From assembly GCA_036874045.1 (NCBI GenBank), contig CM072343.1, forward strand, positions 17,442,001 to 17,506,000: a stretch of 64,000 bases of DNA, written 5' to 3'. Below, in pieces: positions 24,379-52,489 of this stretch; position 1 is the first letter of the stretch; every line of letters begins with the position of its first letter. The stretch comes from Cymodocea nodosa (lineage: Eukaryota > Streptophyta > Magnoliopsida > Alismatales > Cymodoceaceae). The notes beneath the pieces were generated by a model. That model was not told the origin of the DNA, ran no database searches, and saw only the letters and a program-made list of their open reading frames with translations. A program made the position numbers and the translations under genes.

Positions 24379-24709
24379 AACAAACTATCGAGGGCTTGCT
24401 TCCTGTGGAGGGTGAGTGGCTAGCGACGAAAGCAACAAACTGTCGAGGGCTTGCTTCTTGTGGAGGGTGAGTGGCTAGCGATGAAAGCTATTTTCCTGTC
24501 GAGGGCTTCCTTACTGTGAAGGGTGAGCAGGCAGCAGTGAAAGCAACACACTGTCGAGGGCTTGCTTGCTGTGAAGGGCAAGCAGACAACGGCGAAAGCA
24601 ACACACTATCAAGGGCTTGCTTGATGTGGAGGGCGAGCAGCCAATGACGAAAACAACACACTATTGAAGGCTTGTTTGCTAGGGAGGGCGAGCGGCCAGC
24701 GGCGATTGA
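24379..24709. repeat. 55-bp tandem array in the leader of Harbinger element 1
   Basis: Six copies start at 24379, 24434, about 24489, 24545, 24600 and 24655. Each holds a CTGTCGAGGGCTTGCTT-like block followed by GGAGGGTGAG and GAAAGC. It is much GC-richer than the rest of the element. On the element's minus-strand orientation it lies between the 5' end and ORF1. Confidence 0.9.
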
Positions 24710-24973
24710 GCACGTCTAGACCAAACAATGTCGTCGGAGAAGATTGGGTGAGAGTCGGGAGTTGAAGAGGAAGAGAGTTGGAGCGTTGCCGAAGGGAAAA
24801 GGGCGGAAAAAATTTCATAGTGAGCTTTTATATGAAGGTAACGAGGAGAAACCATTTCTTTTGATTTCTTGGTTGCACAAACAACTCTTGCAATAGTTAA
24901 TGGAGGGAAATAACTTCATTTCATACCATAACATGTCATTTCCCTTCATTGTTTGGTGGCACAAACTCACCCA

Positions 24974-26500
24974 TAAGATATCTTGCTTATGAAAAATTCC
25001 CTACCATCAAGTACTCTTGTCTTGATTTTTTTTTTGCTTATTTCTAGTCATTGGCCTCAGTCTATGAGAATCACTTCCTTGGTATGAGATTAAACTTTCA
25101 CTTTAAGTAGCAAGGATGAGATAAATTCATCAACCAAACTGGTGCTACTTCTGGTTTCTGCTCATTCCGGGTAAATTTATATGATAGCTGTTGAAATTTT
25201 GATGGCCATTACCAATCAAATGAAGCTCCCTCTGTCATCCTAATCACATTCATGCTTACTGTTATCTAAGCTAATTGTTGAACATTGGTTTTAATATTAC
25301 CTACTCACGAATAATAATAAAAAAACTGTAATTATTTATCCAATTCTATGATTATATCCACTACAATACATGGTTTAAGTGATATGAAAAAGCTGTGCCA
25401 ACAGAAAATCCATGATCGTCGCATTAAAAAAATCTGGTATACAACTCCAGAGGAATTGGATCTACTTGTACTATGAATTGTGTAAATAATATATCAAAAT
25501 AAAATTTGATATATTATGAGTGTTTACAGGGAAAATTATTTTTAGCGTATTTATGTGAGAGAAAATTCTTCTTGGGCGCAAAAAATTTTAAAAATTGTAA
25601 TCGTTATTTTTCATATCCATTTTAAATCGTAGGCTACCTTTTTTTTTAAAAAAAAAAAAAAAAACTTGTAGCATTATTTGTGTGAATTTAGATCTCTTCA
25701 ATTCTTAATAATTGAAGAGTTCGTTTCATTCACTCCAAACTATTTATTGTGAAATTTATAATACAAAGTGGATGGAGGCGAGGAGGACGCATTTTTTAGA
25801 CGATGATATTAAATTTCTCAGTATGAAAACCGTTTCTTCGACTTTTCCAAAGTAATATCGATTACTCTTGAACTAATTATAAAAGATGGTTAAGTATTCT
25901 GACCGAAAGTATTTTTGAAAACGTAATTTCTACATTATAAACCAATGCTTCTTTCAAAAGTTGTTCAAGGCAAGTTATGGAAACCACAAAAGAATTATCT
26001 TTGCAACATTTTGTATTCACAAGCTAGAAAGATGCATATGATAATTATTCAATTATTATAAAATTCACAGTTTAAAAAATTTATAATAAGATAATAATGC
26101 AACACACTTCATTTATTCATGACGGTACAAGCTGCTATTTGATTTATCGTCAACTTAAATTTCTCTATATTATAATACCTTGTTATTTAATAAACATTAT
26201 TTTTGGTTGACTTCCCAATAAGTAACTACCGAAAAATAAATATTTATAATAGGATTACGGTGCAAGTTTTCGTTGTTGCGTGTAAATTCAAATTTCAATT
26301 TTTTAGCTCTCTTATTATACTTTAAATCTTAATGAACACAAAGAATACTTTTATAAAAATTACAAATCAATCACATAGATATATACATACAGATATAAAA
26401 AAACTTTTAATAATAAAATCATTTAATTACGCCTTTAACAAAAAAAAAAATTAATTACGAGTTCGAAATCTAATAAAAAATTCAAATTGTCAACTTTGAC
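24974..26500. other. AT-rich intergenic DNA upstream of ACX3
   Basis: No gene supported. Contains poly-A/T runs (for example 25640-25665). The last 100 bp before the ACX3 ATG hold a W-box core TTGAC at 26496-26500 and, just beyond, a G-box CACGTG at 26508-26513. Confidence 0.5.
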
Positions 26501-26507
26501 CAGCTGT

Positions 26508-26513
26508 CACGTG
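26508..26513. promoter_or_regulatory. G-box (CACGTG) in the ACX3 promoter or leader
   Basis: Palindromic CACGTG about 95 bp upstream of the ACX3 ATG, a bZIP/bHLH-type site. Function is inferred from position only. Confidence 0.4.
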
Positions 26514-26608
26514 GAGGAGTCGGATACGTATCGGTCCTTCTTCCGTCAAAGAGGAGCTCTCCCCCCCCTTCTGCTCCTGAGCTCCTCCTCTTCCAGAGCT
26601 TGGCGCCG

Positions 26609-29600
26609 ATGGATTCCATCTCCAGGCGAACCGCAGTCATCGCGGGCCACCTCGCCGCCACCGTGTCCCCCACCGCCTCCCTCTCCACGTCCCCATGCCT
26701 CCATGTCACCCTCCCGGACCACCACCCCGAGAACATCGACATCTTCCCCCCCGCGGAATTCCGGGCAATCCTCGACGGGCATAACATCGAGGAAAGAGAT
26801 TGGATGTTGGGGCTGATGGAAAGCAGCGAGCTCTTCCGATCTAGGACTACGTCCAGCGGGAGGACATTCGTGTTCCCTGACTACGGAGACTCGATGGAGA
26901 AGCAGCGGGAGATGACGATGAGGAGGATCTTCTACCTCCAGAGCAAGGGGGTGTTCGACGGGTGGCTGACCACGGCGGGGGCCGAGGCGGATATGAGGAG
27001 GTTCGCGCTGCACGATTGCCTTGGGATTTACGACCACTCGCTTGGTGTCAAGTGTGGTGTGCATCTCTTCCTTTGGTATGTACGATGGATGCATGCTTTT
27101 TGATTTTTCATGTCATATTCGATTTCCGTTTTGTGGAATTACTTGCTGTTTCTTTTCAAGTGATGAATTGTTCGTGCTGGTTTTATTGAATTTTTTATGT
27201 ATCGTTTCGTGATTGTGTTGTGTTGATGATGATGATGGTATCAGATCTTTATGGTTTGGATAAATCCTTCCTTTGCAATTCGATCCTGTTTAATGGAACA
27301 TAATCAATCATGGAATGTGATACAATTGAATTATATTTCTTTATTTGATTATAACATTTTAGTTTTTACAATTCTAAGCATTGGAATTCGATTATAACAA
27401 ATTAATTTCTTTGAGATATCACTTAAATGACTAAACATAAGCTTTAATGGTAAAATTAATTATTTATATAATCTCAAATTTAGTTACCAAACTTTATAAT
27501 TTAGTTAAGTAATGCAATTCAAGCAAAAATTCTTGCCTTGGTCTCTGAGTCATGATTTCACTGGAGTTATGTTATAGTAGAGTCAGCATGTTTTGTTTTT
27601 TTCCTACTTTTCTCTACAACATGCTTTAATTACCTTCGTTTTTCTATGTAAGTAGTAACATCCTTCCTGCTGAAATGCAGGGGTTGCGGAATTCGGTTTT
27701 TGGGTACAAAACGTCACCATGACAAGTGGTTGAAGGACACTGAAAACTATTCAGTTAAGGGTTGTTTCTCGATGACAGAACTGGGGCATGGAAGTAATGT
27801 ACGTGAGGCTTCAATGGCCATTTTTATTTTCGTTTGTCTTTTTCCTAACTTATTGTTGATTTGATGATGTCAAGGTTCGAGGAATAGAAACAGTCACTAC
27901 TTATGACCCAAGTTCAGAAGAATTTATTATAAACACACCTTGCGAATCAGCTCAGAAATATTGGATTGGAGGAGCTGCTAATGTAAGTGGGTAACTTACT
28001 TGCATATGTATTGTCTAGCAAATTGTTCATAAGTAAAAGTATACCTTAGGATTTCTACATATTTTGTTTATTTTTGATATCATTGTTGTTTGCGTTCTGT
28101 TACTAACACTGTCCTTTACCCCCAGCATGCTACACATACAATTGTTTTCTCCCAACTCCTAATTAATGGAGAAAATCAAGGTGTTCATGCATTCATTGCT
28201 CAAATAAGGGATGCAAATGGCAACATTTGCCCCAATGTAAGAATAGCAGATTGTGGCCATAAAATAGGCTTGAATGGGGTTGATAATGGCAGGATTTGGT
28301 AGGACAATCTTCTAATGCAAACTATAAGCACTTTTTACTAGAATATATTATTTTGAAATCTCTTGTATTATTTGAAAATTCTTAGGTTTGATAACCTGCG
28401 AGTCCCTCGAGAAAACTTGCTTAACTCAGTTGCTGATGTGACGCCAGATGGACGCTATACAAGTTCAATTGAAAACCCAGATCAGGTGTGCTTTGTTTTC
28501 TGATATGTTGCTTCACTTTATCTAATTTATTTTTCTGGTTATAACAGTCACCAGCTTCTCGGAAACATAGCTTTCATTTCATTTATATGTACTGTATTTG
28601 ACATAATTTGGTGCTAGTGGCAGTGGTAGAGCCAGAAATTTTCTATCATGCGGAAAATGTAGAATATCAAATTAATAATTTTTTAATAATCAACAAAACA
28701 AATAACTTAAGAAGATCTTTGAACTTCTTGGTTTTAACTTATATAGATCAAACACATTCTTGATTGAGAATTTTCTAAGAGACTTAAGATAAAATGCAAA
28801 AGAGAAAAAAATTTAATTTTTTTAAAAAAACCATTTACTAGAAACTATACATGATATAATATATTATATTAAACTTTCAACATGTTACAAGAACATTTTT
28901 TCAAATTTGGGTGTGGGCATTGCCTTCACTTGTCCCACCCAAATTTGCCCCTAGCTAGTTGGTTTTTTATTAAGACTTCAGTGTTAACTTGTATTTTGTT
29001 CAGAGATTTGCTGCTTTCCTGGCTCCACTGACAATAGGTCGAATAACTATCATGTCAAATGCAGCTTATATTTCAAAGGTATACAGTCATGCTTTCCTAC
29101 TCTTGATTAGTTGGAATTACTCAGTTGCCTTTCATGGAACAATTGGTTTCTAACTTGCACATACCTTGTATCCAGCTCGGTTTGGCAGTTGCCATAAGGT
29201 ACTCCCTCACCAGGAGGGCTTTCTCTTTAACACCTGGAGATCAAGAGGTCTTGCTACTTGATTATCCTAGTCATCAGCATAGACTCCTGCCTCTTGTTGC
29301 AAAAGCGTAATCATCCTGCTCCTGCCTATTATGTCATAACATTTTTTAGTTACCATATAGAAATTTCCTAACTGAAAGTCAACACTAATATTTCCCTGGG
29401 TCTTCAGCTGTGCCATGAGTTTTACAGCTAATGATATGAAAAGACTGTATGCAAATAGAACTCCTGCATCAGTCAAAACTATCCACGTCTATTCAAGTGC
29501 TCTGAAAGCTACAATAACATGGAATAACATGAGAACCCTTCAGGTAGCAACCTTTTTCCCGTAATGCAGTAAGAAATTGTTATTTTTTTATGAATCAGAA

Positions 29601-30855
29601 GAAATCGTCATTTCTCCATAGAAATAAATGGTTTATTCTGGTTTTAATGTGCCTTAAAAAATGCATACTAGGAATGTCGTGAAACCTGTGGTGGACAAGG
29701 TGTGAAGACTGAAAACCGCATTGGCATTCTAAAAGGGGAATTTGACGTGCAATCCACATTTGAAGGTGACAATAATGTGTTGATGCAGCAGGTAATAGGC
29801 TAATAGCAAATACAACATTCAATGATATTTGACCACATCGGTTGTTTCCACACTCACAAAAGATGTAATATCAGGTCAGTAAAGCACTCCTTGGTGAATA
29901 TATAACAGCCAAGAAATTGAATAAGCCTTTTAAGGGACTGGGATTAGAACACATGAATGGACCTTGCCCGCACATGCCTAGTACCTTAACAGGTCTCATC
30001 ATCAGGAGCAGCCAATTCCAGGTAATAAACGTTAATGGCAGTTATTTGTCATGTAGAAATTGACAGCAGGCACATATGCTTATATATATTTATTTTTTGC
30101 ATGCCTAATTTTATTTATGCATTGAAGATTGATATATTCTGCTTGCGAGAACGAGATTTGCTAAACCGATTTGCCAGAGAAGTTTCTCAGCACCAAGCTC
30201 ATGGTGAGACCAGAGAATCTGCAGTCCTCCTGGTATCAATTTCCAACATTACCTTAAAAAATCCTTCTTGGAAGATACATGATTCTTTCGTTCCACTTCT
30301 TTCCTTGGTTTGCTAATTATTTCAAATGGAATCACCAGAGCTACCAACTTGGTGGAGAATTGGGTAGAGCCTTTTCTGAGAAAGCTATATTAGAAAGTAT
30401 TTTGAAGGTCGAATCGGAACAGCCTGCTGGTCCCCTAAAGGTAAGTAGTTTTAATAAGAATTTTCTCTAATACGACTACGTGAGATGTATGTAGTAATGA
30501 AGTCATGCTACAGATGATCCAATGAATTCAAAAGCACTCATTTTCAAACTTTGGTTAGCCTAGAGTAGAACGAACTTGACTCTAAATGCTGAGTTTTGCA
30601 TTTCAGGATATTTTGGGGTTACTGAGATCAATGTATGCTTTGGTCAGTATAGAGGAAGATCCTTCATTTCTTCGGTATGGGTACTTGTCATTAAGCAATG
30701 CAGCTGCAGTTAGGCAGGAATGCACCAAACTGATCGGTGAATTAAGGCCACATGCACTTACCATTGTCAAATCCTTCGGATTACCGGATTCTTTTCTGAC
30801 TCCTCTAGCCTTCGACTGGGTTGAATCTAATTCATGTGCTGCAGTCCCGCAGTAG
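26609..30855 (+). CDS. ACX3: Peroxisomal acyl-CoA oxidase, ACX3 type
   Basis: Thirteen exons in consistent phase: 26609-27075, 27681-27798, 27875-27982, 28126-28298, 28386-28485, 29004-29078, 29176-29306, 29408-29543, 29672-29791, 29875-30021, 30128-30232, 30339-30440, 30607-30855. They give 676 residues, close to Arabidopsis ACX3. The enzyme makes trans-2-enoyl-CoA plus H2O2 from (in this clade) medium-chain acyl-CoA, the first step of peroxisomal beta-oxidation. Seen: FAD/substrate-domain motifs CFSMTELGHGSN and YWIGGAANHATHT, and FEGDNNVLMQQ, which holds the catalytic Glu (about residue 467). The N-terminus contains RTAVIAGHL, fitting a degenerate PTS2 signal, and there is no C-terminal SKL, as in ACX3. 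An in-frame TTG precedes the ATG, but the ATG at 26609 is the natural start. Intron 5 carries a probable old insertion. No lesions seen. Confidence 0.95.
28616..28960. mobile_element. Possible old transposon remnant in ACX3 intron 5
   Basis: Starts GGCAGTGGTAGAGCCAGAAA and ends near CCACCCAAATTTGCCCC, wording often met at the borders of small plant repeats that carry GTGG-GAGCCAG. No clear inverted repeat or target duplication was found. It makes intron 5 (518 bp) longer than most others in the gene. Confidence 0.3.
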
Positions 30856-31222
30856 AAGATAATTTCCCTTTCCTCTTCCCACGTTCGGTGAACAACAAGT
30901 GAATCTTTTCTTCAGCTATTGCATTGCTCTTGGACTCTGGTAAAAAACATAAGCATATGTTTCAAATAAATTAATACAAGTCTTTCTTTTGAGAAAAAAA
31001 AAAGGATTTCATTGTGCCAAGATTTTGGAGCATCTTCCTGTTGTATCCACAATCCATGTATAATTAATTCCTTGTATTTTTTATGGTGCGTAAGTATTTG
31101 TTTTTCTATGTATTTTTGAATCGATAACTGAGGTTATTGGATCTTAACTGTGTACAGTACAAATCAATGGTTTTGATCATGGCACACTTAAAATTCCTGC
31201 TGCATGGAACAAAATACACTAA
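30856..31222. other. ACX3 3' flank
   Basis: Probable 3' untranslated region and downstream flank, AT-rich, ending at the TAA target site of Harbinger element 2 (31220-31222). Confidence 0.6.
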
Positions 31223-31394
31223 GGGGGGGTTAGTGCCTGATAGAATTGAGCTGACGGAAAGGAAAATTATTGAATTCCGTCAGAATGCTGTTAGTGTGCA
31301 TTACACTTGACGGAAAGGAAAGTAGGATTTTATCGTTATATAAAATCTAAAAATTTCCTTTACCGTCAAAAATTTTCTCCTCTCGACCCTAGAG

Positions 31395-32390
31395 AACCCT
31401 CGCGACGTTCGCCTACGCTGGACGCGAAACCCTCGACCGTCTCCCTCTCGCGACGTTCGCCTCCGTTGCCGCCTGCGAAAGCTTCTCTCCTTCTCGCAAC
31501 TGTCGCAGGTAGTGGCCCGGTCTCGCGTCTGCTCTGGACTCCTCTCCGCGCTGGTCCCTGCTCCCTCTAGCCTGTGAAAGCTTCTCTCCCTCTCGCGACG
31601 TTCGCCTCCACTGCCGCCTGCGAAAGCTTCTCTCCTTCTCGCAACTATCGTAGGTAGTGGCCCGGTCTCGCGTCTGCTCTGGACTCCTCTCCGCGCTGGT
31701 CCCTGCTCCCTCTGGCCTGCGAAAGCTTCTCTCCCTCTCGCGACGTTCGCCTCCGCTGCCGCCTGCGAAAGCTTCTCTCCTTCTCGCAACTGTCGTAGGT
31801 AGTGGCCCGGTCTTGCGTCTGCTCTGGACTCCTCTCTGTGCTGGTCCCTGCTCCCTCTGGCCTGCGAAAGCTTCTCTCCCTCTCGCGACATTCGCCTCCG
31901 CTGCCGCCTGCGAAAGCTTCTCTCCTTCTCGCAACTGTCGCAGGTAGTGGCCCGGTCTCGCGTCTGCTCTGGACTCCTCTTCGTGCTGGTCCCTGGTCCC
32001 TGCTCCCTCTGGCCTGCGAAAGCTTCTCTCCCTCTCACGACGTTCGCCTCCGCTGCCGCCTGTGAAAGCTTCTCTCCTTCTCGCAACTGTCGCAGGTAGT
32101 GGCCCGGTCTCGCGTCTGCTCTGGACTCCTCTCCGCGTTGGTCCCTGCTCCCTCTGGCCTGTGAAAGCTTCTCTCCCTCTCGCGACGTTCGCCTCCACTG
32201 CCGCCTGCGAAAGCTTCTCTCCTTCTCGCAACTGTCGCAGGTAGTGGCCCGGTCTCGCGTCTGCTCTGGACTCCTCTCCGCACTGGTCCCTGCTCCCTCT
32301 GGCCTGCGAAAGCTTCTCTCCCTCTCGCGATGTTCACCTCCGCTGCCGCTTGCGAAAGCTTCTCTCCTTCTCGCAACTGTCGCAGTAGTC
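31395..32390. repeat. 145-bp GC-rich tandem array in the leader of Harbinger element 2
   Basis: About seven copies; the marker GGTAGTGGCCCGG falls at 31508, 31653, 31798, 31943, 32094 and 32239 (periods 145, 145, 145, 151, 145). Within each unit a shorter block with GCGAAAGCTTCTCTCC appears twice. Copies are nearly identical, so the array is young or homogenised. Because 145 is not a multiple of 3 and stops are rare, long open frames on both strands are incidental. Confidence 0.93.
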
Positions 32391-33370
32391 GATCACGGTC
32401 GCTGCTGCTCCATCCGTCGTTGCCACCGCATCGGCCGCTGCCGCTCGCATCCATCGTGCATCCGCCGCTGCCGCTACCACCGCACCGCTCACGCTCGATA
32501 TTCCGGCATCCATACATAATAGTTTTGTTTAATCAGAGTTTTCAGCAATACTATACTATACTATGATCCAATTAATGGCATATTATCATTTAGCAGTACT
32601 TACTATGCTTTATGAATGCTAAATTTCACTTAAAGCTCAAGTCAATTTTTGAATCATATGATGATTCATGTATATTATGCTGAATTGTGTAATGACTTAC
32701 GATCATGTAATTTTTTTAAGTTGTAGTAAATGCTGTTGTTTAGTGTTATACTTACAGGGTTATGTATGCTAGTGTATAAATGGATCCTCTTCTCTAATGG
32801 CCTGATATATCTATATAAGGGACTCATTTACTTACTAATAGTCACAACCCACTAAATATATCACTCGACACTAACTCCAACTGTAGTATGTTAAATTCAC
32901 AGGTCCCTCTTGAATAGATGCAAAGAATTTCTAATGCCATGATTTTGTTAAAAACTTTTTTAAATTTAAATTAGTAACATTGATACCTATTATTGTTGAA
33001 AACTAATTAAATTTAGTTTGAAATAGAAATATAGATGCAAGTAATTTTGAAACTAAAATAATAATATTAGGATATTACCCCCTCATGTAGATGAAATAGA
33101 AATATAGATGCAAGTAATATTAGGATATTACCCCTTCATGTACCATTTATTGATGTGATTCGTAAGATAATTCTGTTTGGCATAGGATATTATTTTGCAT
33201 TTATTGTTTGGCATAAGTTATTTAATTCATTAACCATTTAATATTAATATATATTTATTGGTTTGCTTTCATTTTCAATTATTGAGTAGATTGACAAAAT
33301 ATATTATGTAGTAGTAAATCTTATAATCTTCTGTCGTAGCAGTTAATTAATATTTGATCTTATGTAGTAA
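32391..33370 (+). other. Leader region between array and ORF1 of element 2
   Basis: GC-rich up to about 32515, then AT-rich. Probably promoter and 5' untranslated sequence, possibly with a leader intron. A 45-50 bp stretch is doubled at about 33055-33140 (GATGAAATAGAAATATAGAT and ATTAGGATATTACCCC). Confidence 0.4.
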
Positions 33371-34445
33371 ATGAGTACTTCTGATAGAGGATGGGGTAAT
33401 GGAGGACGAACTTATATGACTTGGAATGCTGAAGCAGATGCATTCTTTTTAGATATTTTATCAGAAGTATTAAATGAGGGAAACAAAAAAACCCAAGATG
33501 GAAAGATAAAAGGGAGCACTTGGGATGAAGTAGTTGAAAAATACAATATTAGAAGAAATGCATGTATTACAAAGAAGAATGTGAAAAGTCGCTTAAAGAC
33601 ATGGAGACAAATTTATCGTAACTACTCAAAAATTGCAAATCAGAGTGGATGGGGATGGAATTTCATACAAGGGTATACTGATATAGATGAAGAGATATGG
33701 AAGGAGTTTATTAAGGTAAGATTTTTATTTACATACTTTAAGATTATCCCAATTGTATTGAATTTTTCTTAATATATATTGTAATTTTATGTAGGCACAT
33801 CTAGAGTGTGAAAGTTGCAAGGGAAAACCATGTTTGATTTATGAACAATTACAACTCATTTTTGAAGGTACTATGGCTAGTGGAAATATGTCTAGACAAG
33901 CAAAAGAAGTAGACATTGTACCAAACACTCAAGTTCCAAATATATTTACTCCAGACATTACACAAGATGGAATGGACCTCGATTCTGACATACCTCCTAG
34001 TTCAGGAGGAAGTGCACATGTTCTATTGGAGCAGAGGAAAAAGGGGAAGCGAGCACGCCCTCATGCAGAATCTCAACAAATGATAGCAGAAAGTTTGAAA
34101 GATAGGTCACGAGCTTTTCTTAATTTGTGTGAACAAGATACTGTTAATGGTGAGGTACGTAATGAACAAATGAGAGAGATGATTCACATACAAAAGGAGA
34201 TGTTTGTATGTAAGAAGGAAATGTTTTCATGGAAGAAGGAAATGTTTGCATGGCAAAAGAAGTCTGAGTCTTTTTTAGATGAAGCTATTGCTTCAATATT
34301 TGAGATTGAAGATCTACCTATGACTGATCGATATAAAGCTACTCAATTATTCCAAAAGCAAGAAATCAGTAAAATATTTCTATCAATTCCAAAAGAAATG
34401 CGACAAGGATGGTTGAAGTTTCACTTAGAAAAGATGGAAGACTAA
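33371..34445 (+). CDS. Harbinger ORF1: Myb/SANT-like DNA-binding protein
   Basis: Two exons, 33371-33715 and 33795-34445 (GTAAGA donor, TGTAG acceptor), give 331 residues. The Myb/SANT-like domain lies at about residues 15-113 (TWNAEADAFFLDIL, LKTWRQIYRNYSK, SGWGWNFIQG). A central acidic/proline part leads to a basic KKGKRAR stretch, a plausible nuclear localisation signal. A heptad-like KEMF repeat (three copies, about residues 254-276) then precedes a C-terminal helical block ending KMED. In the family this protein binds subterminal sites and partners the transposase. No lesion seen, so it could still be expressed and act in trans. The ATG at 33371 is the first Met in frame before the domain. 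Confidence 0.88.
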
Positions 34446-34648
34446 AGATGATTTACATGTTTTTTTTTGTATTAGATGTATGATGTAACTACTTTTTGTT
34501 TGGACAAGGAAATGTGGAATGATATTATTATTGATGTTTGTTTATCATATTTTATTATGTTCTATTAATTGTGGAATGATTTCATGTAATATGTTTATTT
34601 GTATTACAACCTTGTAATATGTTTGGACATGAAATTTTGTAGGTGACG

Positions 34649-35959
34649 ATGAATTTTGAAGAGGATTTTGACGAACTAGTAAATAACACATTGATGTTAT
34701 TTGAAGAAGAGGAAGAACATGCTAGAAGAAGGCGAAGACGTTTACTTGCTTTTTGGAATATTTTAGCAGGGATTGCAAGTACCTCAACTTTGTTTTCAAG
34801 TACAAGTCGTATTTATAGTAAAGAAGGTGCAGATTATATAAGAAGATTATTAGATCCTTCTTTACCACATCAAGTTTACAATTGCCGAAAGATTTATAGA
34901 ATGAGTCAAAGTGTTTTCAAGGGTTTTTGTGAATTAATGAGGAGGGAAGAAGTGCTGAAAGATACCAACAATATCAGTGTAGAAGAGAAGTTTGCCATGT
35001 TCCTTGTGACAGTTGGGCAAAATCAAAGGTATGGAGTAACTACAAAACGATTTAGTCGATCAAGTTGGACAGTTAGTAAATACTTTAATGAAGTGTTGAA
35101 TGCTGTATTACGACTAAATCATGTTCTTCTAGCAAGACCTTCATCTAAAACACCAAGTCGAATTCGTCAAGACTCAAATGTGTACCCATATTTTAAGGTA
35201 CATTTTCACACCTTTGGTGTTTCCTTATCTTATATGTTATTTTAGTCAATATCAAAATAAAAGTGCATGTTTATAGAATTGTATTGGAGCTATTGATGGT
35301 ACACATATCAAAGCAACTATTTATAGACAAGAAACAGCAAGATTTAGGAACAGGAAAGGTGAATTATCTCAAAATGTAATGGCAGCATGTAATTTTGATA
35401 TGGAATTTACATATATTTTAGTTGGTTGGGAAGGATCAGCTGCTGATGCTCGTATTCTCCAAGATGCAGTTACTAGACCTAATGGTTTTCAAGTTCCACC
35501 AGGTAAATGTGTTTTCCACTTCTACAAGTTATGAAGACATCACCATACTAATATTTTTTTTATACAGGTAAGTTTTACTTAGTTGATGCTGGATATCCAA
35601 ATCGATCAGAATATATTTGTCCATATCGAGGTGTAAGATACCATCTATCTGATTATGTTAATGATAGAGTTCCTCGTAATGCTGTAGAAAATTTCAACTA
35701 CAGACATTCACAATTGAGAACAGTCATTAAGCGTACATTTGGAGTTGTGAAACATCGATTTTCAATATTACGTGGTCAAATACCATATCCATATGAAACA
35801 CAAGTAAAGATTGTCATCGCATGTTTTTCGCTTCATAATTTTATTCGTAAGACTGATAAGGAAGATTTACTTGAGGACCTGCTAGATGAGTTAGAAGAGT
35901 TAAATATTATTGATGACATACAACCAATGGGAGAGATACATATAGAAAGCAATGCCTAG
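34649..35959 (+). CDS. Harbinger transposase (DDE_Tnp_4), open frame, Lys at catalytic Glu
   Basis: Three exons, 34649-35197, 35277-35502 and 35568-35959, give 388 residues. N-terminal block YIRRLLDPSLPHQVYN, then IGQNQRYGVTTKRF (helix-turn-helix region), and the RNase H-fold core: first Asp at D190 (AIDGTH) and second at D240 (AADARIL). The third acid should lie in the motif IERTFG; here it reads IKRTFG, with AAG at 35729-35731, so Glu is replaced by Lys at 313. The other two Harbinger copies in the window have Glu at this site. Introns are at the same places as in element 1. Predicted role is cut-and-paste excision and insertion at TWA; with Lys in the active site the protein is probably unable to cut DNA but may still bind its partner. 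Confidence 0.88.
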
Positions 35960-36272
35960 GTTCGAATGACTCAAGAACAAAGAAAAGAAATAGCAGATAA
36001 GATGCGAGAAGATATGATGATGACAATGTAGGATGGAAGAACTAGATGATATTATTTCGTATTGTAATATTTCAATTAAGATGTATTTGTATTTTTTGAA
36101 TATTAGTTGTAATAAACTTTTGTCAGAATTTCCATTAGAATTTTCCGTCCTGCACTAAACCCTTCTTAGAATTTTCCTTTTCCTTTACGTTACAAATTTT
36201 CTATTTCCTTTTCGTCAGAATTTTCCTTTTCTTTTCCATCAAAATTTTCCGTCCTGCACTAACACGCCCTAA

Positions 36273-40397: not shown

Positions 40398-40400
40398 TTA

Positions 40401-41118: not shown

Positions 41119-44100
41119 ATGGGAAGGGGATCGAAGAACGGGTGCAAGTCGGCCGCACACCAGCTGTTCGACGACAAGATGAAGAACCGGGTGGACGATC
41201 TTGAGGGAATGCTCACCGATCTCCAGTTTGCCCGGAGGGAGAGCCGGACGGGAGACGTGACGGTGCTGGAGGAGCAGGTCCACCAGATGCTGCGAGAGTG
41301 GAAGGCCGAGCTCAACGAGGCCTCCCCTGCATCTTCCTTGCGCGTAAAGAAATGGCATCTGCTTGCTCCCCTTCTTTTCTTTTATCCGTTGTCCTTGTTT
41401 GCACGCGATTTTGTTGGTGCTCGGAAAAGCGAAGTTCATGATTCGTTGTGCTTGCGTTGTTTGCTGTCGATTTTGTGTTGGGGCCATCTTTTAAGGCTGG
41501 GTTTCTGCAGGGAGGTAGCCATGTCTCGTTTGGGCTCTCCAGCGATATACACCGAATGTTGCAGCTTTACGAGGACGAAGATGATGCTACCAGTAAGTTA
41601 GCCTACTTGCAGCCTACGATCCCAAAGCCTGAGACCGATGCCACTCAAAACAATCTCCATGTTCATCAAGATGGAAAAGCTGATGTCTATCAGGAGGTGA
41701 TTATTATCTTCCATTAAACAAAAACATCAGTATTTTCACAATGCACGGTGTGCACCCTTTGTGATTGATGAAATCTTGTTGGCCTTGAGTTCTTTTCACG
41801 TGTATGTTGTATCTTTCTTGTTTGATGTCTTGCCATTAGCTTGTCGTAAAATCATGTTTTCTGTGCTTGTTTCCCACTAAAAAGTAAATTCCCTTGGCTT
41901 CAGCACAAACTTAAATTATTCCTTTGCTTTTTCCACCTATCAAAATGTAATTTAAAAATAAAATATTTTCTGTACCTTTCCACATATGCACAAATAATTT
42001 ATAGGATTCACACGAAAAGTAAAATTTTGTGAATTTATTCTTACTTGATTTCTGTTTGGGTTACATATTTTCCTTTTCTTTGGCTCTCAACATAAACAAA
42101 CCATAGATTCGTAGAATAGATACCGTTGGACCAGGGAAAAAGCAAAATAGTTTATTATTGCTTCTCTGAAGAACGTAAGTTATTCTGGATAAAAATTCTA
42201 TGTGGTTCCTTGCAACAGGCCAACATGTTGCATGCACCATCATAAACCGTTAGGCTTGCAGCCTGAGCTCCCTCTCATCAAACTCCAAGCCTCAGCAAAA
42301 GTTCAGAAGACATTCTTTTGCACTTCCAACTATCAAGTGTTATATTTTTTCTGTATATTGATAAAAAAAGATCCATCAATACACATCATGCACAATACAT
42401 GCTTTATATGTTCCACTCATTTATTTGTTCTTATAATCCTTCGACAGAATATGTTAGCAAGCTGCTAGCGACGGGAATATTTTCACCTTCAACTGTGTTC
42501 AAAGTTTCTAAATCACCTTTTAAAGTTCCAATTAACATTGTTCCTTCTACCATTAGCATACAAAAACACACGAAATTCTTCATTTTGCTTTTAGTTATCT
42601 TTTTGAATGTTGCATATTTCCTGCTAATCCATTGCTAGAGATTTCTGCATGAAATGACAATCCGTGTCCGTTCAAATTGTAGACCATTCAGACCTCCAAT
42701 TCACCAACTTCTGATTGATAATTGTCAGGATCTACAAGGTGCTGGTCTTCAATGTGTTGTGTAATGTTGTTGCTGGTGCTCTACACCTGTCTTATATTCT
42801 TGGATCTATTAATTCTCTTGTGTTGCTTGCTGCATCTATCATACCTAATATGCTGATGATTTTCAATTTTGACCAGATTTATACTTAAAAATGTGCGTTA
42901 AGCTTTTGAGTTGGTCTTTTGCAGATTTATTATGCTAATACTCAGCAAATTGTAATGCATGAGTTCCAAGGAATTGATGGATTGAAAACCACCCTTCCAA
43001 TGAGATTGGAGCTCCAAGGAATAGACGGATGCAAAGCCACCCCTCAGTTCCAAGGAATCGATGGATTGAAAACCACCATTCCAATGGGATTGGAGCTCCA
43101 AGGAATAGATGGATGCAAAGCCACCCCTCAGTTCCAAGGGATTGACCCCTATATTGAATTGCCTAATCCAATGGGTAATTGTGTAGAGGGAGCCACCCAG
43201 TTGGACTATCAGCAATTTAATATGCATCAAGATTTACTCCATAACTTATTTTCTCACTATGAAGGAAGTTGGCTACATGGGCAAAATGTGATAGCTCATA
43301 TGGATGACCTGTTTCCTACAATATGCCCCCCAGCTTCTGCTTTCTTAAGGCCAAAATGTGCACTATGGGATTGCCCCAGGCCTGCTAAGGGACGAGATAA
43401 TTTTGAGGATTACAAGGATTACTGCAGTAGTGTTCATGCTATTCTTGCCTTCAGCGAAGATCCTCCTGGAATGACTCCTGTACTGCGTCCTGGTGGCATT
43501 GATATGAAAGATGGACCTCTCTTTTGTGCACTTATTGCAAAAACACAAGGGAAGAATGTTGGCATTCCAGTTTGTGAAGGTGCAGCAACAGCAAAATCCC
43601 CATGGAATGCACCAGGTATGCCATTTCTGTACATTCCAGACTTCTTTTTTCATTTATTTGCATCATGAACTGTACCATCTTTTTCATGAACTAGCACTAG
43701 GATAAGGCTGCTTGTTGGATGTGTGGTTAAACTCGGTTATGCTGTCACATTGCAGAGCTCTTTGATCTTTCAGTGCTTGAGGGGGAATTAATTAGAGAAT
43801 GGCTTTTCTTTGATAAGCCCAGAAGAGCATTTGAAAGTGGGAACAGGAAGCAGAGGTCTCTTCCAGATTACAGTGGGCGTGGATGGCATGAATCAAGGAA
43901 GCAAGTTTTGAAGGAGTTTGGGGGGTTGAAGAGGTCCTATTACATGGATCCACAACCGCTGAACCATTTTGAGTGGCATCTCTATGAATATGAGCTCAAT
44001 AACTGTGATGCCTGTGCATTGTATAGATTGGAACTGAAGCTAGTGGATCCAAAGAAGAGTGGAAAAGGGAAAGTATCTGGCGTTTCATTTGCTAAGTTGC

Positions 44101-44357
44101 AACAGCAAATGGGGAAGCTGAGTTCTGATGGTCCTGTGGATAATAAACGTTCCGTCAAGGGCAGGGCAAAAACTAACCAGAAGGATGCTGCCATGAATAG
44201 CCATCACTCTGTGTCCGGTGGACATGTGAAGGATAACGTTGGTAATGCATGTCTGGATTCTGATCAGTCCCCACCAGCAAATGAAGTACTGGTTTATGGA
44301 CCAACCCTCCCATACGGGTACTCAATTGATACTCTCAATCAATATTATGGTGCGTAG
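41119..44357 (+). CDS. VOZ: VOZ transcription factor (vascular plant one zinc finger)
   Basis: Four exons, 41119-41343, 41511-41696, 42925-43615 and 43756-44357, give 567 residues. The N-terminus ([12 protein letters not shown], then [20 protein letters not shown]) and the C-terminal VOZ domain (zinc motif CALWDC then YCSSVH at about residues 281-305, followed by a basic DNA-binding part, [16 protein letters not shown]) are family-typical. VOZ proteins act as dimers on GCGTNx7ACGC sites and interact with phytochrome B in flowering and stress responses. Compared with the roughly 450-490 residues of Arabidopsis VOZ, this protein is longer. Most of the excess is an in-frame tandem duplication at residues 151-206 (two 28-residue units built on FQGIDG). 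Frames and splice sites are intact. Confidence 0.94.
42964..43146 (+). repeat. 84-bp in-frame tandem repeat inside VOZ exon 3
   Basis: Units start at 42964, 43048 and 43132 (the last partial). The two full units differ at about 4 of 84 bases. Each encodes [10 protein letters not shown], then [14 protein letters not shown], so GIDG recurs every 13-15 residues. The seed FQGID is normal in VOZ; the expansion is not something I recall from the family. Confidence 0.92.
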
Positions 44358-45268
44358 GTATATTTGAGACTCCAGGGAAGTAGTGGTCGGTATCATGCAA
44401 GTCTCTAAGGTGCTGGCGCATTCCAAATTTATTCTTTCCTCTTCTGATGTAAATCACTGCCAATTAAGCACATCTAGCTAACAGTAATAGGTTTATCCTG
44501 GCTTCTGATCAGCCAAGATTTCTGTATTCCACTTCTTGATGAGCTGTTTTTGTAGCGAACCAAGAAGTCGCACAATGTTTTATTTACCTCTTTTTGCCGT
44601 GTAAAGTAACCGTCACAACACTGATGCTTGAAAATATTTGTTCAGAAAGTGAAGTTTCCTGCCTTGTTTTGTTCAGAAAGAAGTTTTACCTACCTCTTTT
44701 TGTTTAGACATTTTTTTTTTTTCTGTCTTTTTTCAGAAACACTTCTTAAATCGAACCTGCAAATCTCATTTTTCTGCCTCTGTGTCACATATGACAATTC
44801 CTAATCGAATGCATTAATGCATTGGATAAATAAGTTTAAATGAGTTTGATTCTTTAATTTGCATTTGCATTTATCCATTAATCACACATATATAAATCCA
44901 ATTAAATTATCATCTACCTCCTTTTCCACACACCGCAAGTGTCAAAATGAGCCAAGTGCAAGAAACTTGGATTGAATTACAATAAGACGATAACAAAGAT
45001 AATTTAGTGGTTTCATATGTAAGATAAAATAATAACCATTCTTATAAAGTTAAGTAAAATATTCTAACGAAAGAGATATTTTGGTATGGCATTATATATC
45101 TATATATATATATATATTCTAGAAGTTCGTATATACCGATAAATAATTATTTGATGGTAAAATAATAATAATATAAGATTTTACAGTAAAGACACCAACG
45201 ATAACTAAAAACATTTGAAATAGACGAACGAACGTTTTGTTCAAAAGACGAAGAAACGTGCTGTTTAT

Positions 45269-45480
45269 GAAATAATTTGAATAAATATCATGACTGCTAC
45301 ATGTGTGGCTGGTTTGCTATATATTTATCGTGACGGCTTCGGTTGTGGAAATTAAGAAATTTTACTTGAGAAAATTTTCCATAAATAATTTAATTCGAAG
45401 GTGACGATGTGTGCATTTTCTCTTGTATCATTTATTATCATGTGCAAGTGGTCAGACAGGGTGGACTTGACCATGTGTGT
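45269..45480. repeat. Duplicated promoter-like segment, distal copy
   Basis: Shares ordered blocks (ACATGTGTGGC, GAAATTTTAC, CGAAGGTGAC, CTTGTATCATTTATTAT, GACTTGAC) with 47138-47325, which lies directly upstream of the lectin kinase gene. No gene follows this copy, so it may be the relic of a lost tandem duplicate. Confidence 0.7.
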
Positions 45481-47025
45481 GTGTTAGTCGCGGGTATTTT
45501 ATTTATCATTGGACTTCCTCAACCATGTTATATATTGCATTTTATAATTAGGCAGTTATTTAATTTCTTGTGAAAAGGCATTTTAATTACCACCCTCCTT
45601 TAATTTTCCTCCCAACACAGCAACCCAACTTGTATTGAATTACAACAAGATGATAATTTAGTAATTTAACTGGGATGAAGATTACTTGCATCCTCTTCCA
45701 TGTACTTATGAAAAGATGCAAAATGTCTCTGCCAAATTAAAAACGACCTCAATTTCATTAAATGTGGAAGGCTGGAAGAGGGGAGTTTTCTTTTATCCTT
45801 TGTATTAATCATCTATACATTAATATAAAGGATTTTTTGTTGTCTCTACCTCAAAATCACTTAATAGTGTGATTACGGATTGGAAAAGTAAATAAAGACA
45901 TTTGTATAGGATGAAAAATCTAAAAGGTAATTCTAAACTTTTCTTGATATAAATATTAAAGTTTTTCGAACCTTTCTTCCTTTCTTTTGTAGAAAATGTT
46001 GCACAAAGTTTAAAAAGTAATATGATTTTCAATGAACAAGATTTAATATTGATAGTTTGTGCACTTGTATTTAATTTATGTATTTTTATTAATACTTATT
46101 ATTTGTATTTGATGTTAATATTAAATTTAATTAATGATAATATTTATTATTTTATTTTAAAAAAATAAGGTTTATAATTTAAATTTTTTTTTTTTAATGA
46201 CGTACATAACTCCCCTTTTTTTTTTTTCCCTGAATTTCTTGCAAAACCAATTGAGAAAGATTATTCATCTCTCATCAACACACTTCATCTTTATAGCTAA
46301 TCATTATTTTGCCTATGTACATTACCTCCTCCACATATGTCACAGACTTTGGCCATCATCTTGCTCCTCCTTCACCTTGCCAACAACATCACTACAACCC
46401 ATCATCACAAAAAATGAAGCGATTTCAAAGTAATATCAACCATTCTTCCTTATATATGCTACATGATTGTTCTTAAAGATCCACATCAATCTTCCTATGT
46501 TGTTCCCATATTCATGGACATAATCTATCATATGTTTGTGTGCTGTGGCCACAATACTAAGGTAATCGTAAAGATTTACTTTGCTATTACGTCAAACATA
46601 TGGATCATATCATGGTCTGTGGGTCATCGACTAAAAAGGATTCAGCACACATATCTTAAATACTGAAAATAGGCTTGTCAATTAAGTGTGAAGCAATTGA
46701 CGATAAACTTAGGCATTGGACTATGCAACCATACGTCAAGATTACAGAATCAATGTATTTTGCATTATTGAGGCTAAGCACAAGTTTATTTTAGATAAAA
46801 TATAGATCATTAATAGAATAGAGATAAGTAGATAAGAATTTACAATTTATCATAGACCATACATCCCTTATAAATATGGAAAGGTAGATCGTTCTATGAA
46901 GTAAGAAAAGGATTGTTAGGGTTCAAGGTTTATGATTTTTCTATGACATGGAAGGGAGAGAAAAAGAGGATTTTCTTTTTCTTTTTTCAAATCCATTTAG
47001 AGACCATGCACACCCAATCGCTTTA

Positions 47026-47065
<40 letters not shown>

Positions 47066-47137
47066 GAATTTTTAATTAAAATCATAATCACAATTTTCTT
47101 GATCTCCAAGTAAAGGATATATAGATGTGTGGTATAT

Positions 47138-47325
47138 GAAATGAGTTGAATAAATGTTGTGAGTAGTACATGTGTGGCCGGCTGTCCTCTACCGTTCAGT
47201 TGAGGAAAGAAATTTTACATAAGAAATTTCCTATAAATTGATCGAAGGTGACAATTTGTGCATTTTCTCTTGTATCATTTATTATTACATTAAAGTCAAC
47301 CAGTCGCGGACTTGACTTCATGTTG
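47138..47325. repeat. Duplicated promoter-like segment, proximal copy
   Basis: Pair of the segment at 45269-45480; ends about 390 bp upstream of the lectin kinase ATG. Confidence 0.7.
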
Positions 47326-47609
47326 GTCCTAAAAGATAAAATCAGGATTTGAACATCCAGGAAAGTCTTAACTTTAATGATCGGCATTTATTAGTTGGCC
47401 CACTCCAAGATGGAAAAAGGAACAAGTCCGAAATGGGAAAGTAAATTGTACCACAACTTGTTTTTCCACATATTCAATTTCTAAGAAATTCATGTTCCGA
47501 ACATTTAATTTCAATTTCTTGGAAGAACCGGACCATGTACATGAACGATAGACTTTTCTTACGTTGAATCACAACCAAAATAGATTTCTCTTGTTTGGGT
47601 GCCTCTCGC

Positions 47610-47617
47610 TATATATA
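47610..47617 (+). promoter_or_regulatory. Probable TATA box of the lectin receptor kinase
   Basis: TATATATA, 100 bp upstream of the ATG at 47717, implying a leader of roughly 70-80 nt. That leader would contain a two-codon upstream frame, ATG GCC TGA, at 47653-47661. Confidence 0.5.
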
Positions 47618-47716
47618 CATATATGGGGAGAGAACCACAACCACGGCTACATATGGCCTGAGAAGAAAAGAGCTTCTTGATTCACTTCTTCTGCGTCAGC
47701 TTGTAGGTGATCGCCA

Positions 47717-50227
47717 ATGGCCACCAACAGGTTTTTTTTGCTTCTACCACTCCTTCATCTCTTACTCTCCATAACCCACCTTCCACAACCAGTGGCATCT
47801 CAAACTACGAATGGGACAAGGGTGACCTTGGGGAGCTCCCTTACTGCTGGTGGAAGTAATGATCGATGGCTTTCACCTTCGGGTGACTTTGCCTTTGGCT
47901 TCTTCAAGCCAAGCAGTGGCTATGGAAACCGCTTCCTCGTAGCCATTTGGTACAACAAGATCTCACAAAAGACTGCTGTCTGGTCAGCCAACAGGGACTC
48001 TCCGGTAGAAGAAGGATCTAGATTAGAGCTCACGAGAAATGGCATTCGTCTGCTTCGCCGTAGAGATGGACGGGAATCATGGCCTGCAAATGCTACAGGC
48101 GCTGCAGAATATGGAGAGATGCTCGACAATGGTAACTTTGTTCTTGGTCGAAGAAACTCCTCATCCGACTACTTGTGGCAAAGCTTTGATCACCCAACGG
48201 ACACCATCCTCCCTTCTCAGGTGAGCAAATTAAATTAAGGAGTCCAATGTTCATTCATAAAAGCTTTTGAGATTAATCGAGAATATATATATACAAGTAT
48301 AGATTGTCAAAATCTGACATAAATTTAATTATTTTATCAGGTACTCAAAGCAAAGAATAAAGATGTCGATCTTCTTACTTCTCAGCTATCAGAAACCAAT
48401 TTCTCTAGAGGTCGGTTCTCTCTTCGTCTGCAAGTTGGTGGAAATCTTTCTTTTTTTATCAAAGATGAGGAAAAATATAGGCGTTACGGGTTCACAGACA
48501 ATGAAAATTTTGGCAATGCTAATAGAGTAGTCTTCAATGAAACTGGTGCAGTTTGGGTCATGAATAATCAAAGTGAAAGAACTCGGGAACTCATTATTAG
48601 AGATCAGGAATATCCAACAAGAAACTACTATCATCGAGTAATCATTGAACATGATGGAGTTTTGAGAAAATATGTTTTCCCAAAGAACGACATCAACGGT
48701 GGTTCTTGGCTTATGAGGCAGCATACACCCAAAGATATTTGTGGGCGGCTATATCGCATTCGGCATACGCCTTGTGGCTACAACAGCATTTGTAAAGTCA
48801 ACGATAGCAGAAGCTATTGTGAGTGCATTCCTGGGTATTCATACATCAATCCAAATGATAAAAGGGCAGGGTGTACATCATATGCAAGACATGGTTGTAA
48901 GGTGCCGTTTAAGATGGTAAATTTGCAACGCATAGGTTGGCCTAAGGACTATCGTCATTTTGAAATACGTAATACCACAGACAAGGAAGAGTGTCGACAA
49001 TGGTGTGTAAATGATTGCTTTTGTGGAGTAGTTGTTTTAGACCAAAACAAATGTAGGAAGGGGATACCGCCTTTGACATCTGGGAGAATGTTCGGAGAAA
49101 AAACACCAAGTCAAGTCTTTGTAAAGGTGTGGACGAATGAGTCCATGGATAACAAGGGTACACATTACTTGCCCATTGCGCTACTTAGTATCTTCCTTTT
49201 AATAGCAATCTTCTTTGTTGTCTTCCTCTTATATCGATCCCAATGCACCTCAAGGATCATGAATTATGGCAAGGAATATCCAAGCAACTTACATCAATTC
49301 ACCTACGAAACTCTGCAAGTTTTGACGGATGGATTCACCGAAGAGCTTGGGCGTGGTACTTTTGGTACAGTCTACAAAGGAAAGATGAGAACTAATTCCC
49401 AAGGGGAGAAAAACTTCATTGCAGTCAAAAGATTGGACAGGCTCCAGATGATAGATGGAGATGAGGAGTTCAAAACGGAAGTGAACGTGATCGGACAAAC
49501 CCATCACAAGAACCTTGTCAAGCTGGTTGGATATTGCAACCAGGGTGTCCATCGACTCCTGGTATACGAGTTCATGAGCAAAGGCTGCCTCTCAGACTAT
49601 CTTTACAAACAAACCACAAAGCTATGTTGGTTCCAACGGGTCAAAATAGCTAATGCAATCGCAAGAGGGCTGTTATATCTACACGAGGAGTGTAGTAGTC
49701 CTATCATCCATTGTGACATAAAGCCTCAAAACATTCTTCTTGACGACAACCTCAATGTAAAGATATCAGACTTCGGACTCGCGAAGCTATTAAAGACGGA
49801 TCAGTCGAGAACTTACCCAGGCATTCGAGGAACCAGAGGATACATTGCACCAGAATGGTTCAAAAACATTGGTGTCACCACAAAGGTGGATGTCTACAGT
49901 TTTGGGGTCATGTTACTAGAGATCATAACTTGCAGGAGGAGCTTAGAACCGACGCTGGAAGAGAAAGGGGAGGCCATACTTGTGGATTGGGCATACCAAT
50001 GTTACGAAGAAGGAAGAATGAGCGAGTTGCTCACCGAAAGCGACGAGAGGGATGTGGAAATCGTAAAGCAATTGGAGAACATGGTGATGGTGGCCATTTG
50101 GTGCATCCAGGAAGATGCCTCCTTAAGGCCTTCTACGAGGAAAGTAACCTTGATGTTGGAAGAAGAAGTTGAAGTTCCTCATCCACCGAGTACTTTCTAC
50201 AGTAGTGTGGTGGTTAATAATGATTGA
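47717..50227 (+). CDS. G-type lectin S-receptor-like Ser/Thr protein kinase (LECRK type)
   Basis: Two exons, 47717-48220 and 48341-50227, give 796 residues. Order: signal peptide (1-28), bulb-lectin domain (about 35-165, with WSANRDSP and LWQSFDHPTDTILP), EGF-like Cys-rich part (about 309-335), PAN-like part (to about 420), transmembrane helix (about 443-466, LPIALLSIFLLIAIFFVV) and cytoplasmic kinase (about 497-775). Kinase signatures: LGRGTFGTVYKG, AVKRL, HCDIKPQNILL (a non-RD kinase, common in immune receptors), DFGLAK and GYIAPEW. It is likely a plasma-membrane receptor for defence or stress cues; the ligand is unknown. Many relatives lack introns, so the 120-nt phase-0 intron is notable; reading through it stops after five residues. 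A copia element sits 296 bp downstream. Confidence 0.93.
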
Positions 50228-50523
50228 TTTATATATGCATATCCATCAAAATACTAGTGTAATATCTTTAATTAGTTTCTCTTCGTAGAAGAAGACTCTG
50301 TGTCTGTAATATCTATCGATCTATATATCTATCTTTTGCATAATGTCGCTATAGGAAAATGCATTTAAAGTTGTACTACTATAGTTAATAATCTATATCT
50401 GTTGTAACATCAACAATGTAATTTATTAGTGTAATTATACATGTGTGTATCCTTTCTCTTCATAGATGAAATTATTGTGTATACTTACTTACCATCTTTT
50501 GTATTATGTTGCTATATATATAT
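50228..50523. other. 3' flank of the lectin kinase with a degenerate duplication
   Basis: Two similar stretches, about 50260-50352 and 50430-50520, share CTCTTCGTAGA/CTCTTCATAGA and ATCTTTTGCATAATGTCGCT/ATCTTTTGTATTATGTTGCT. The second runs up to the TATAT target site of the copia element. Confidence 0.6.
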
Positions 50524-50716
50524 TGTTGGAATCGGTCAAAAATACCAAGTTTCAAATTCAAATTCCGGTAACCACCGAAATTTAAGGAGTAAGTTGGGGG
50601 TGGAGATGGTGGAGGTCGTTAATCTTCCAAATGCTATAAATAGAGGTGAATAATACAAAGTATTAATCACCTGAAATAATCCACCATCGGAGCCCCCAAA
50701 CTTGTAAAGTCCAACA
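50524..50716 (+). repeat. 5' LTR of the copia element
   Basis: 193 bp from TGTTGGAAT to GTCCAACA, with the 5' TGTTGGA / TCCAACA 3' inverted ends usual for copia. A TATAAATA box lies at 50635-50642. Confidence 0.95.
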
Positions 50717-50730
50717 GTGGTATCAAAGCC

Positions 50731-51372
50731 AGTTCGGCCGCCCGCACGTCTGCAAGTCCCGTCGCCTACGCGTCCGCCAGTCCGGCCGCCTGCGCGAGCA
50801 CCTCCCGCTGCCCGCGCGACTGCCAGTCCGGCCGCCCGCGCGTCCGCCAGTCCCGCCGCCTACGCGTCCGCCAGTACCGCCGCCCGCGCGAGCACCTCCC
50901 ACTGTCCGCGCGTCCGCTAGTCCGGCTGCCCGTGCGTCCGCCAGTCCCGCCGCCCGCGCGAGCACCTCCCGCCGCCCGCGCGTCTGCCAGTCCGGCCGCC
51001 CGCACGTTCGCCAGTCCCGTCGCCTGCGCGTCCGCTAGTCCGGCTGCCCGCGCGTCCCCCAGTCCCGCAGCTCGTGCGCACCTCCCGCTGCCCGCGCGTC
51101 TGCCAGTTCGGCCGCCCGCGCGTTCGCCAGTCCCACAGCCCACGCGCACCTGCGCGCACCTCCCGCAGCCCGCGCGCACCTCCGCAGCCTACGTGCGCAC
51201 CTCCGCAGCCTACGCGCGCACCTCCGCAGCCTGCGCGCGCACCTCCGCAGCCCGCGCGCACCTCCTCTGCTCGCGCGCACCTCCACCTGCTCGCACGCAC
51301 CTCCCGCCACTCACGCGCACCTCCCGCCGCTCGCGCGCACCTGGATTGCCGGACTTCCGCCCTCGGGTGATT
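50731..51372. repeat. GC-rich minisatellite in the copia leader
   Basis: About 640 bp of degenerate tandem repeats built on GCCCGCGCG, CCGCCAGTC and GCACCTCC words, in an otherwise AT-rich element. Unit spacing varies; toward the right end a short unit CGCACCTCCGCAGCC dominates. Open frames exist in several phases on both strands because TA-rich stops are rare, so no coding role is claimed. Confidence 0.88.
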
Positions 51373-52472: not shown

Positions 52473-52489
52473 AGAACAAAAGAACCTTC

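Follow-up and report, generated by a model that had tools for sequence, protein, structure and literature searches.

The GC-rich exon 1 of En/Spm is untranslated and repetitive, the monomer types of mouse L1 elements have been replaced over time, and the repeats of Drosophila gypsy are located between the LTR and gag. In maize En/Spm (En-1), exon 1 reaches 82% GC at positions 300-550 and has been proposed as a methylation target (PMC2613891). Mouse L1Md carries tandem monomers in its 5' UTR, whose copy number varies among copies (PMC6454616). The Drosophila LTR elements gypsy, ZAM and Idefix have 5' UTR tandem repeats with reported insulator, enhancer or silencer functions exerted via host proteins (PMC8872304), and plant LTR elements of the Ogre/Tat type bear hypervariable, family-variable tandem arrays in their 3' UTR (PMC7004042). 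In Arabidopsis and rice, C exceeds G around the transcription start site (TSS) (PMC555766). Among the titles and abstract openings searched, which leave subscription journals mostly uncovered, no GC-rich leader-array pattern is described for Harbinger or plant copia elements, and the accessible part of PMC2829016 contains nothing on leader arrays. Here we analyze a 64,000-nucleotide stretch of the Cymodocea nodosa genome (the window), in which such arrays had been noticed in three mobile elements.

RESULTS

Three window elements carry GC-rich arrays in their leaders

The window, whose overall GC content is 0.34, holds two Harbinger elements (H1 and H2) and one copia element (Table 1). A DDE_Tnp_4 transposase is present in both H1 and H2, as in PIF/Harbinger elements; in H1, the Pfam scan found it in the open reading frame (ORF) at 20594-20995. 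H2 also has the TWA target site duplication of PIF/Harbinger (TAA). The ATA read on the flanks of H1 departs from the TWA consensus, and the H1 TIRs are imperfect; comparison of related loci places the 5' boundary of other H1 copies near 24950-24988. A Myb/SANT-like ORF, likewise a feature of PIF/Harbinger, is present in H2 (PF12776). The scanned H1 pieces gave no Pfam match, but in the H1 copies L033, L039, L044 and L046 the corresponding DNA resembles the Myb region of H2 at 66-68%. In place of the CACTA transposase and TIRs of En/Spm, DDE_Tnp_4 and GGG..TTAGTGC termini were found. The third element (50524-56017), flanked by TATAT, has the LTRs, PBS, gag and integrase ahead of reverse transcriptase that characterize Ty1/copia; we take its PBS to be of the initiator-Met type.

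The preliminary description had placed a GC-rich array between the 5' end and the first reading frame of three elements belonging to two transposon classes. This holds: TRF locates all three arrays within the element boundaries and upstream of the first ORF, the H1 array being only moderately GC-rich. Since none of the unit steps (55, 145, 22 and 46) is divisible by 3, the arrays look non-coding; a coding origin was judged unlikely from these unit lengths. Both window Harbingers additionally have tandem arrays close to their 3' ends, which are AT-rich. Most of the 145-bp units of H2 contain (C/T)AG followed by GTAGTG, a sequence that resembles a plant splice donor and is altered in the last unit.

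Table 1. Coordinates of the features of the three elements in the window
Feature	Position	Strand	Basis and remarks
H1 element	20046..24972	-	sequence reading and inverted repeats
H1 TIRs, imperfect: GGGCTTATTTGTGC.. / GGGTGAGTTTGTGCC..	termini of 20046..24972		ATA on both flanks
H1 predicted TATA box, TATAAAA	24826..24832	-	26 bp ahead of GC block
H1 leader array, 55-bp unit x 6.0	24376..24705	-	TRF; 80% match, GC 0.54
AT-rich 48-bp tandem array near H1 3' end	20142..20258	.	TRF; not GC-rich
H2 element	31223..36269	+	TIRs GGG(G/C)G(G/T)GTTAGTGC.., TSD TAA; boundary common to other copies
H2 predicted TATA box	31337..31345	+	about 40 bp ahead of GC block
H2 GC block, automatically bounded	31379-32497	+	GC-block rule
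H2 leader array, 145-bp unit x 6.5	31440..32389	+	TRF; 94% match, GC 0.63
H2 second short leader array, 36 bp	32396..32475	+	TRF; GC 0.71
H2 first ORF, Myb/SANT-like	33371..33772	+	PF12776 (Myb_DNA-bind_3), E 6e-13
H2 transposase reading frames	34643..35959	+	DDE_Tnp_4 in 35552-35959
AT-rich 24-bp tandem array near H2 3' end	36170..36250	.	TRF
copia 5' LTR	50524..50716	+	TATAAAT at 50635
copia primer-binding site (PBS) TGGTATCAAAGC	50718..50729	+	sequence; matched in related copies
copia leader arrays, 24/70/94-bp then 20/40-bp periods	50728..51342	+	TRF; GC 0.78-0.79
copia untranslated leader before gag	50729..51649	+	0 ATG in 921 nt
copia gag and pol frames	51651..55741	+	PF14223, PF07727, rve and others
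copia 3' LTR	55825..56017	+	94% alike to 5' LTR

The arrays are retained in related copies and exceed the background

We define a GC-rich array as a TRF array with a GC content of at least 0.5. In genome searches with the window arrays, the H2 array found at least 69 matches, with 40 of 82 candidates scored, and the copia array at least 44, with 40 of 130 candidates scored; the H1 array found 18. From these searches, 58 loci were drawn (H2, 20; H1, 18; copia, 20; window copies and the overlapping repeats L014/L025 counted), and since they were chosen via their arrays, they permit no estimate of frequency. In these loci, the similarity runs on into the same element family, with nearly common 5' boundaries. 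Once duplicates were removed, a GC-rich TRF array lies within the element in 46 of the 53 non-window loci (14/17 for H2, 13/17 for H1 and 19/19 for copia).

Outside the three elements, the window (48,532 bp, same TRF settings) contains, as far as GC-rich arrays are concerned, only one borderline array (6946-7112, GC 0.50) and one CT microsatellite. The borderline array, with periods of 31/61 bp and a GC content of about 0.50 over 6922-7112, belongs to no assigned element. In the flanks of the 53 related loci (73,407 bp), GC-rich arrays occur at 5 loci and are longer than 100 bp at 2 of them (L035 and L037). Judged against the window remainder and the locus flanks, arrays inside the elements are thus more numerous than expected by chance. 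The arrays of L035 (605-803) and L037 (2731-2884), of 80-82 bp, lie beyond the limits of the H1 element. Between the element and this outside array, L035 has an inverted H1-like 5' end, which may mark a second element placed head to head and bearing a leader array of its own. Two other repeats of the window deserve mention. The same three tandem-repeat rows occur at 910-1035 and 4670-4795, 3,760 bp apart, suggesting a direct duplication at the window start, and an 84-bp (28-codon) unit is duplicated at 42961-43139 within a host reading frame, presumably that of a VOZ transcription factor.

As to the 3' side, GC-rich arrays were absent by TRF from the 3' ends of H1, H2 and the window copia element, and from the 1.5 kb past the domain match of L005, L007 and L008 (Harbinger) and of L067 and L068 (copia), a small control of five loci and three window 3' ends in which, among the five loci, the 3' end was mapped in L007 only. 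No GC-rich array was found either at L001-L004 and L006, whose DDE matches possibly belong to host genes, or in the stretches read at the domain matches of L069-L074 (CACTA, MULE and hAT). Some transposon domain matches are spaced tens of kilobases apart (C18:2.4-5.0 Mb, C22:1.13-1.22 Mb, C9:8.10-8.15 Mb and C3:3.29-3.37 Mb), suggesting large tandem or segmental duplications.

Some other Harbinger and copia families share the pattern

For Harbinger, 12 Myb ORFs were hand-picked from 150 listed Myb_DNA-bind_3 matches (1473 candidates), mostly one per ORF-size class, and the 2.4 kb upstream of each was read. The picks were blind to arrays except for L084, whose class was already suspected of an H2-like array, another of its members being found beside an H2-array match. 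GC-rich arrays are located upstream of the Myb ORF in six of the twelve (L077, L079, L080, L081, L082 and L084), those of L081 and L082 being short (54 and 58 bp). Four of the six misses (L075, L076, L078 and L086) display transposase-like frames, recognized by eye, upstream of the Myb ORF, and were set aside because these frames put the leaders outside the stretch read. L083 and L085 are plain misses, with no GC block though no transposase frame was seen upstream.

The copia sample comprised six of 150 listed gag matches (10460 candidates) and four of 150 listed RVT_2 matches (15128 candidates), and GC-rich arrays were found between the PBS and gag in 5 of the 10 stretches. L087, L088 and L089 share a 62-bp array type and, judging by array and gag start, belong to one family, the PBS of L089 matching only with two mismatches; L091 and L092 have a 30-bp type, short in L092. 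A 187-bp unit is present twice in L090 and L094, at a GC content of 0.43-0.44. L095 and L096 have a PBS and neither a GC-rich array nor a GC block, and no PBS was seen in L093. The 5' placement proposed from three elements recurs in other Harbinger and copia families, and the loci of the small 3'-side control are free of GC-rich arrays.

The GC blocks are C-skewed and mostly poor in ATG, and a predicted TATA box precedes most Harbinger blocks

An automatic rule set the limits of GC blocks in 23 stretches: the 3 leaders of the window, all 12 stretches upstream of Myb ORFs and, of the 10 from copia, the 8 that remained once L089 and L093 were omitted for want of a clear PBS. In 13 of them, the block reaches at least 100 bp and a GC content of at least 0.5; these represent 11 families (grouped by eye) once the second copies L088 and L092 are dropped. 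The sense strand is C-skewed in all 11 families (-0.16 to -0.36). ATG occurs 15 times in the blocks versus 30.5 expected, and none of 500 dinucleotide shuffles was that low; the shuffles take repeated units as independent, and the safer figure is the family count, with ATG under expectation in 9 of 11 families (the exceptions being L081 and L087). CAT, the reverse-complement control, is not depleted (67 observed versus 53.4 expected). Six leaders of other copia families contain 3-7 ATG versus 11-20 CAT, with ATG below CAT in each, and L095 and L096 have 25 ATG each in stretches that extend into coding sequence. In the window copia family, 19 of 20 copies have 0 or 1 ATG per leader and L052 has 8, as counted by a script that closed each leader where a gag-start-like motif first appears, except in L048, L052 and L059, which were cut at 900 nt.

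A TATAWAW motif, for which chance would give about 0.2 per 80 bp, lies 26-70 bp ahead of the block in six of the eight Harbinger families (H1, H2, L077, L079, L082 and L084); L080 has none and L081 none nearby. Again in six of eight families (H1, H2, L077, L079, L080 and L084), 152-190 bp separate a TIR-like start from the beginning of the block, the TIRs of the last four being motif calls that lack a 3' partner; no TIR-like start was recognized in L081 or L082. RNA folding makes the sense strand less stable than the antisense strand in all 16 blocks folded; we give this difference no weight because it partly follows from C-richness with G-U pairing.

Units turn over within a conserved leader layout

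In Harbinger family A, a downstream same-strand Myb or DDE match accompanies all 40 scored arrays (174 candidates), as checked with 27 Myb and 36 DDE places among the matches listed. The arrays measure 357-459 bp, and 19 of the 40 are 421 bp long; 14 of the other 21 deviate from this length by 38, 19 or 13 bp, which are unit sizes. Array and Myb match are 681 bp apart in 25 of 27 cases and 679-680 bp apart in the remaining two. Many family A copies are 97-100% alike over the array. Within the H2 clade, the 145-bp unit is amplified in L009-L013 and L015, and in L016-L024 a 144-bp unit is present some 2-3 times, mostly with extra arrays of 10-42 bp units (72 bp in L018 and 115 bp in L024). It follows that the GC-rich leader is constant in H2 while the amplified unit changes.

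The impression that the unit sequences are unrelated is borne out, since 64 of the 66 pairs formed by 12 hand-bounded arrays show no similarity beyond that of 10 shuffles. Two pairs score above shuffles, H2/L084 and, more weakly, copia/L091; apart from these, no unit or motif is common across families, and no k-mer of 5-7 bases occurs in more families than shuffles give (12 arrays). Repeated independent origin, which the preliminary description had proposed, is likely between Harbinger and copia and is not supported within Harbinger. Because the terminus and TATA spacing are similar in most Harbinger families, and because branches of the H2 clade amplify different units within one GC-rich leader, the Harbinger GC leader may be ancestral, with only the units being new.

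Resident H1 and H2 copies decay like methylated DNA

Substitutions were scored against the majority state. In the H2 units of five copies, they affect 60/900 CG, 60/750 CHG and 3/1198 CHH sites, with A/T transitions at 1/1497 and transversions at 10/4345; 53 de-duplicated H2 units from 17 copies give 103/1590, 113/1325 and 10/2060 for CG, CHG and CHH, respectively. The H1 array, in 12 copies, gives CG 71/380, CHG 41/255, CHH 56/1328 and A/T 17/1474, and the H1 AT part bears the same mark outside the array (CG 46/340, CHG 47/429 and CHH 42/2425). With the overlapping L014 and L025 still counted, the values are CG 7/112, CHG 6/182 and CHH 23/1400 in the H2 first ORF, CG 16/300 and CHG 16/169 on the H2 terminal side, and CG 0/60 and CHG 4/90, on few sites, in the H2 AT-rich leader part. 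Most mutations seen in the arrays of resident H1 and H2 copies are C-to-T changes in CG and CHG contexts, as would be expected from cytosine methylation at these sites. This directly observed decay contradicts the idea that the arrays serve silencing escape, at least for the resident H1 and H2 copies, which have not escaped silencing.

DISCUSSION

We consider it rather probable that the arrays are tandem expansions within untranslated, C-rich 5' leaders, of which the composition, strand and place are kept, and not the sequence. Place, strand bias, ATG scarcity and TATA spacing are direct observations. In each window element, a predicted TATA box near the 5' end, located in Harbinger subterminal DNA or in the copia LTR, is followed by a GC-rich, C-skewed, ATG-poor block beginning near the predicted transcription start and, in copia, right after the PBS. 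In the mechanism that we propose, short units are repeatedly gained and lost within this block. The block is probably a non-coding leader or first exon that is tolerated or favored by transcription and ribosome scanning. It would then be transcribed, and its composition may be under selection rather than being the product of transcription-linked mutation; tandem expansion itself may for the most part arise incidentally, from slippage or template switching. Against this reading speak L083, L085, L095 and L096, which lack a GC block, the want of a TATA box close to the block in L080 and L081, and the ATG content of L081, L087 and other copia leaders. We put forward more tentatively that unrelated transposon families of two classes converged on a GC-rich, C-skewed, ATG-poor leader of low information content, starting near the transcription start and selected for composition and strand rather than sequence, in which tandem expansion restores what methylation decay erodes. 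The explanations listed here overlap in part and are not wholly exclusive.

A neutral origin is possible, albeit doubtful in our eyes. The leader would owe its GC-richness to mutation bias at the transcription start or to a host-like 5' GC gradient, and functionless arrays, whose length changes are tolerated, would arise in it by slippage, unequal exchange, template switching or gap repair. Such an origin agrees with the direct observations that unit sequence and number change freely and that the families share no motif, and for plant LTR elements the tandem arrays of the 3' UTR have been explained in this way (PMC7004042). Three host coding stretches of the window are likewise GC-rich (0.60-0.68), yet they contain no GC-rich TRF array. 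Moreover, the scarcity of ATG on the sense strand, with CAT as the control, points to a constraint at the RNA level, and unrelated families are alike in composition, neither of which a neutral origin would lead one to expect. A grouping of three unrelated arrays in the window by chance, for which the small number of elements speaks, is very improbable given the same pattern in 6 of 12 Harbinger and 5 of 10 copia stretches of other families and the retention of arrays in related copies.

Functional roles of the arrays themselves can also be envisaged. Their tandem multiplicity and a position of the same kind as that of the gypsy and ZAM insulators (PMC8872304) would suit sites bound by a protein of the host or of the element, acting as an enhancer or insulator as in these Drosophila elements. 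We regard this as unlikely, and a single common factor is hard to reconcile with the absence of any 5-7-base k-mer in more families than in shuffles; factors specific to a family could still act. An array might also form a transcription or chromatin island, by which the promoter would stay open and the element would evade silencing, and the CpG observed/expected ratio is 1.0-1.6 in most arrays (0.66 in H1) versus 0.34-0.61 in the three window element bodies. However, base composition and youth account for the high CpG, and resident H1 and H2 copies decay like methylated DNA, which leaves little credence for such an island.

With the same composition, strand and place found in about eleven families, it can be tested in general whether a base composition suited to transcription, to scanning or to splicing, and not a set of motifs, is what transposon leaders evolve toward. 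The arrays also call for care in annotation, since repeat libraries might detach these hypervariable leaders from their elements, or the leaders might be missed as simple repeats.

Like En/Spm, the Harbinger elements described here are plant DNA transposons with a GC-rich stretch near the 5' end; En/Spm, however, is a single element of the CACTA type, whereas the present pattern extends over Harbinger and copia families and consists of tandem arrays with family-specific units. In L1Md, an animal non-LTR element, the monomers are the promoter, while in most Harbinger families here the TATA box lies upstream of the array. Unlike the repeats of gypsy, ZAM and Idefix, the present arrays have no motif common to families. 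The Ogre/Tat arrays are untranslated as well, but they belong to the 3' side and to the gypsy lineage. The leaders resemble the C-skew at plant TSSs, for which the source concerns host genes and its abstract is silent on tandem arrays (PMC555766). These precedents are single elements; the interest of the present case is its breadth, with about eleven families of two transposon classes in one genome.
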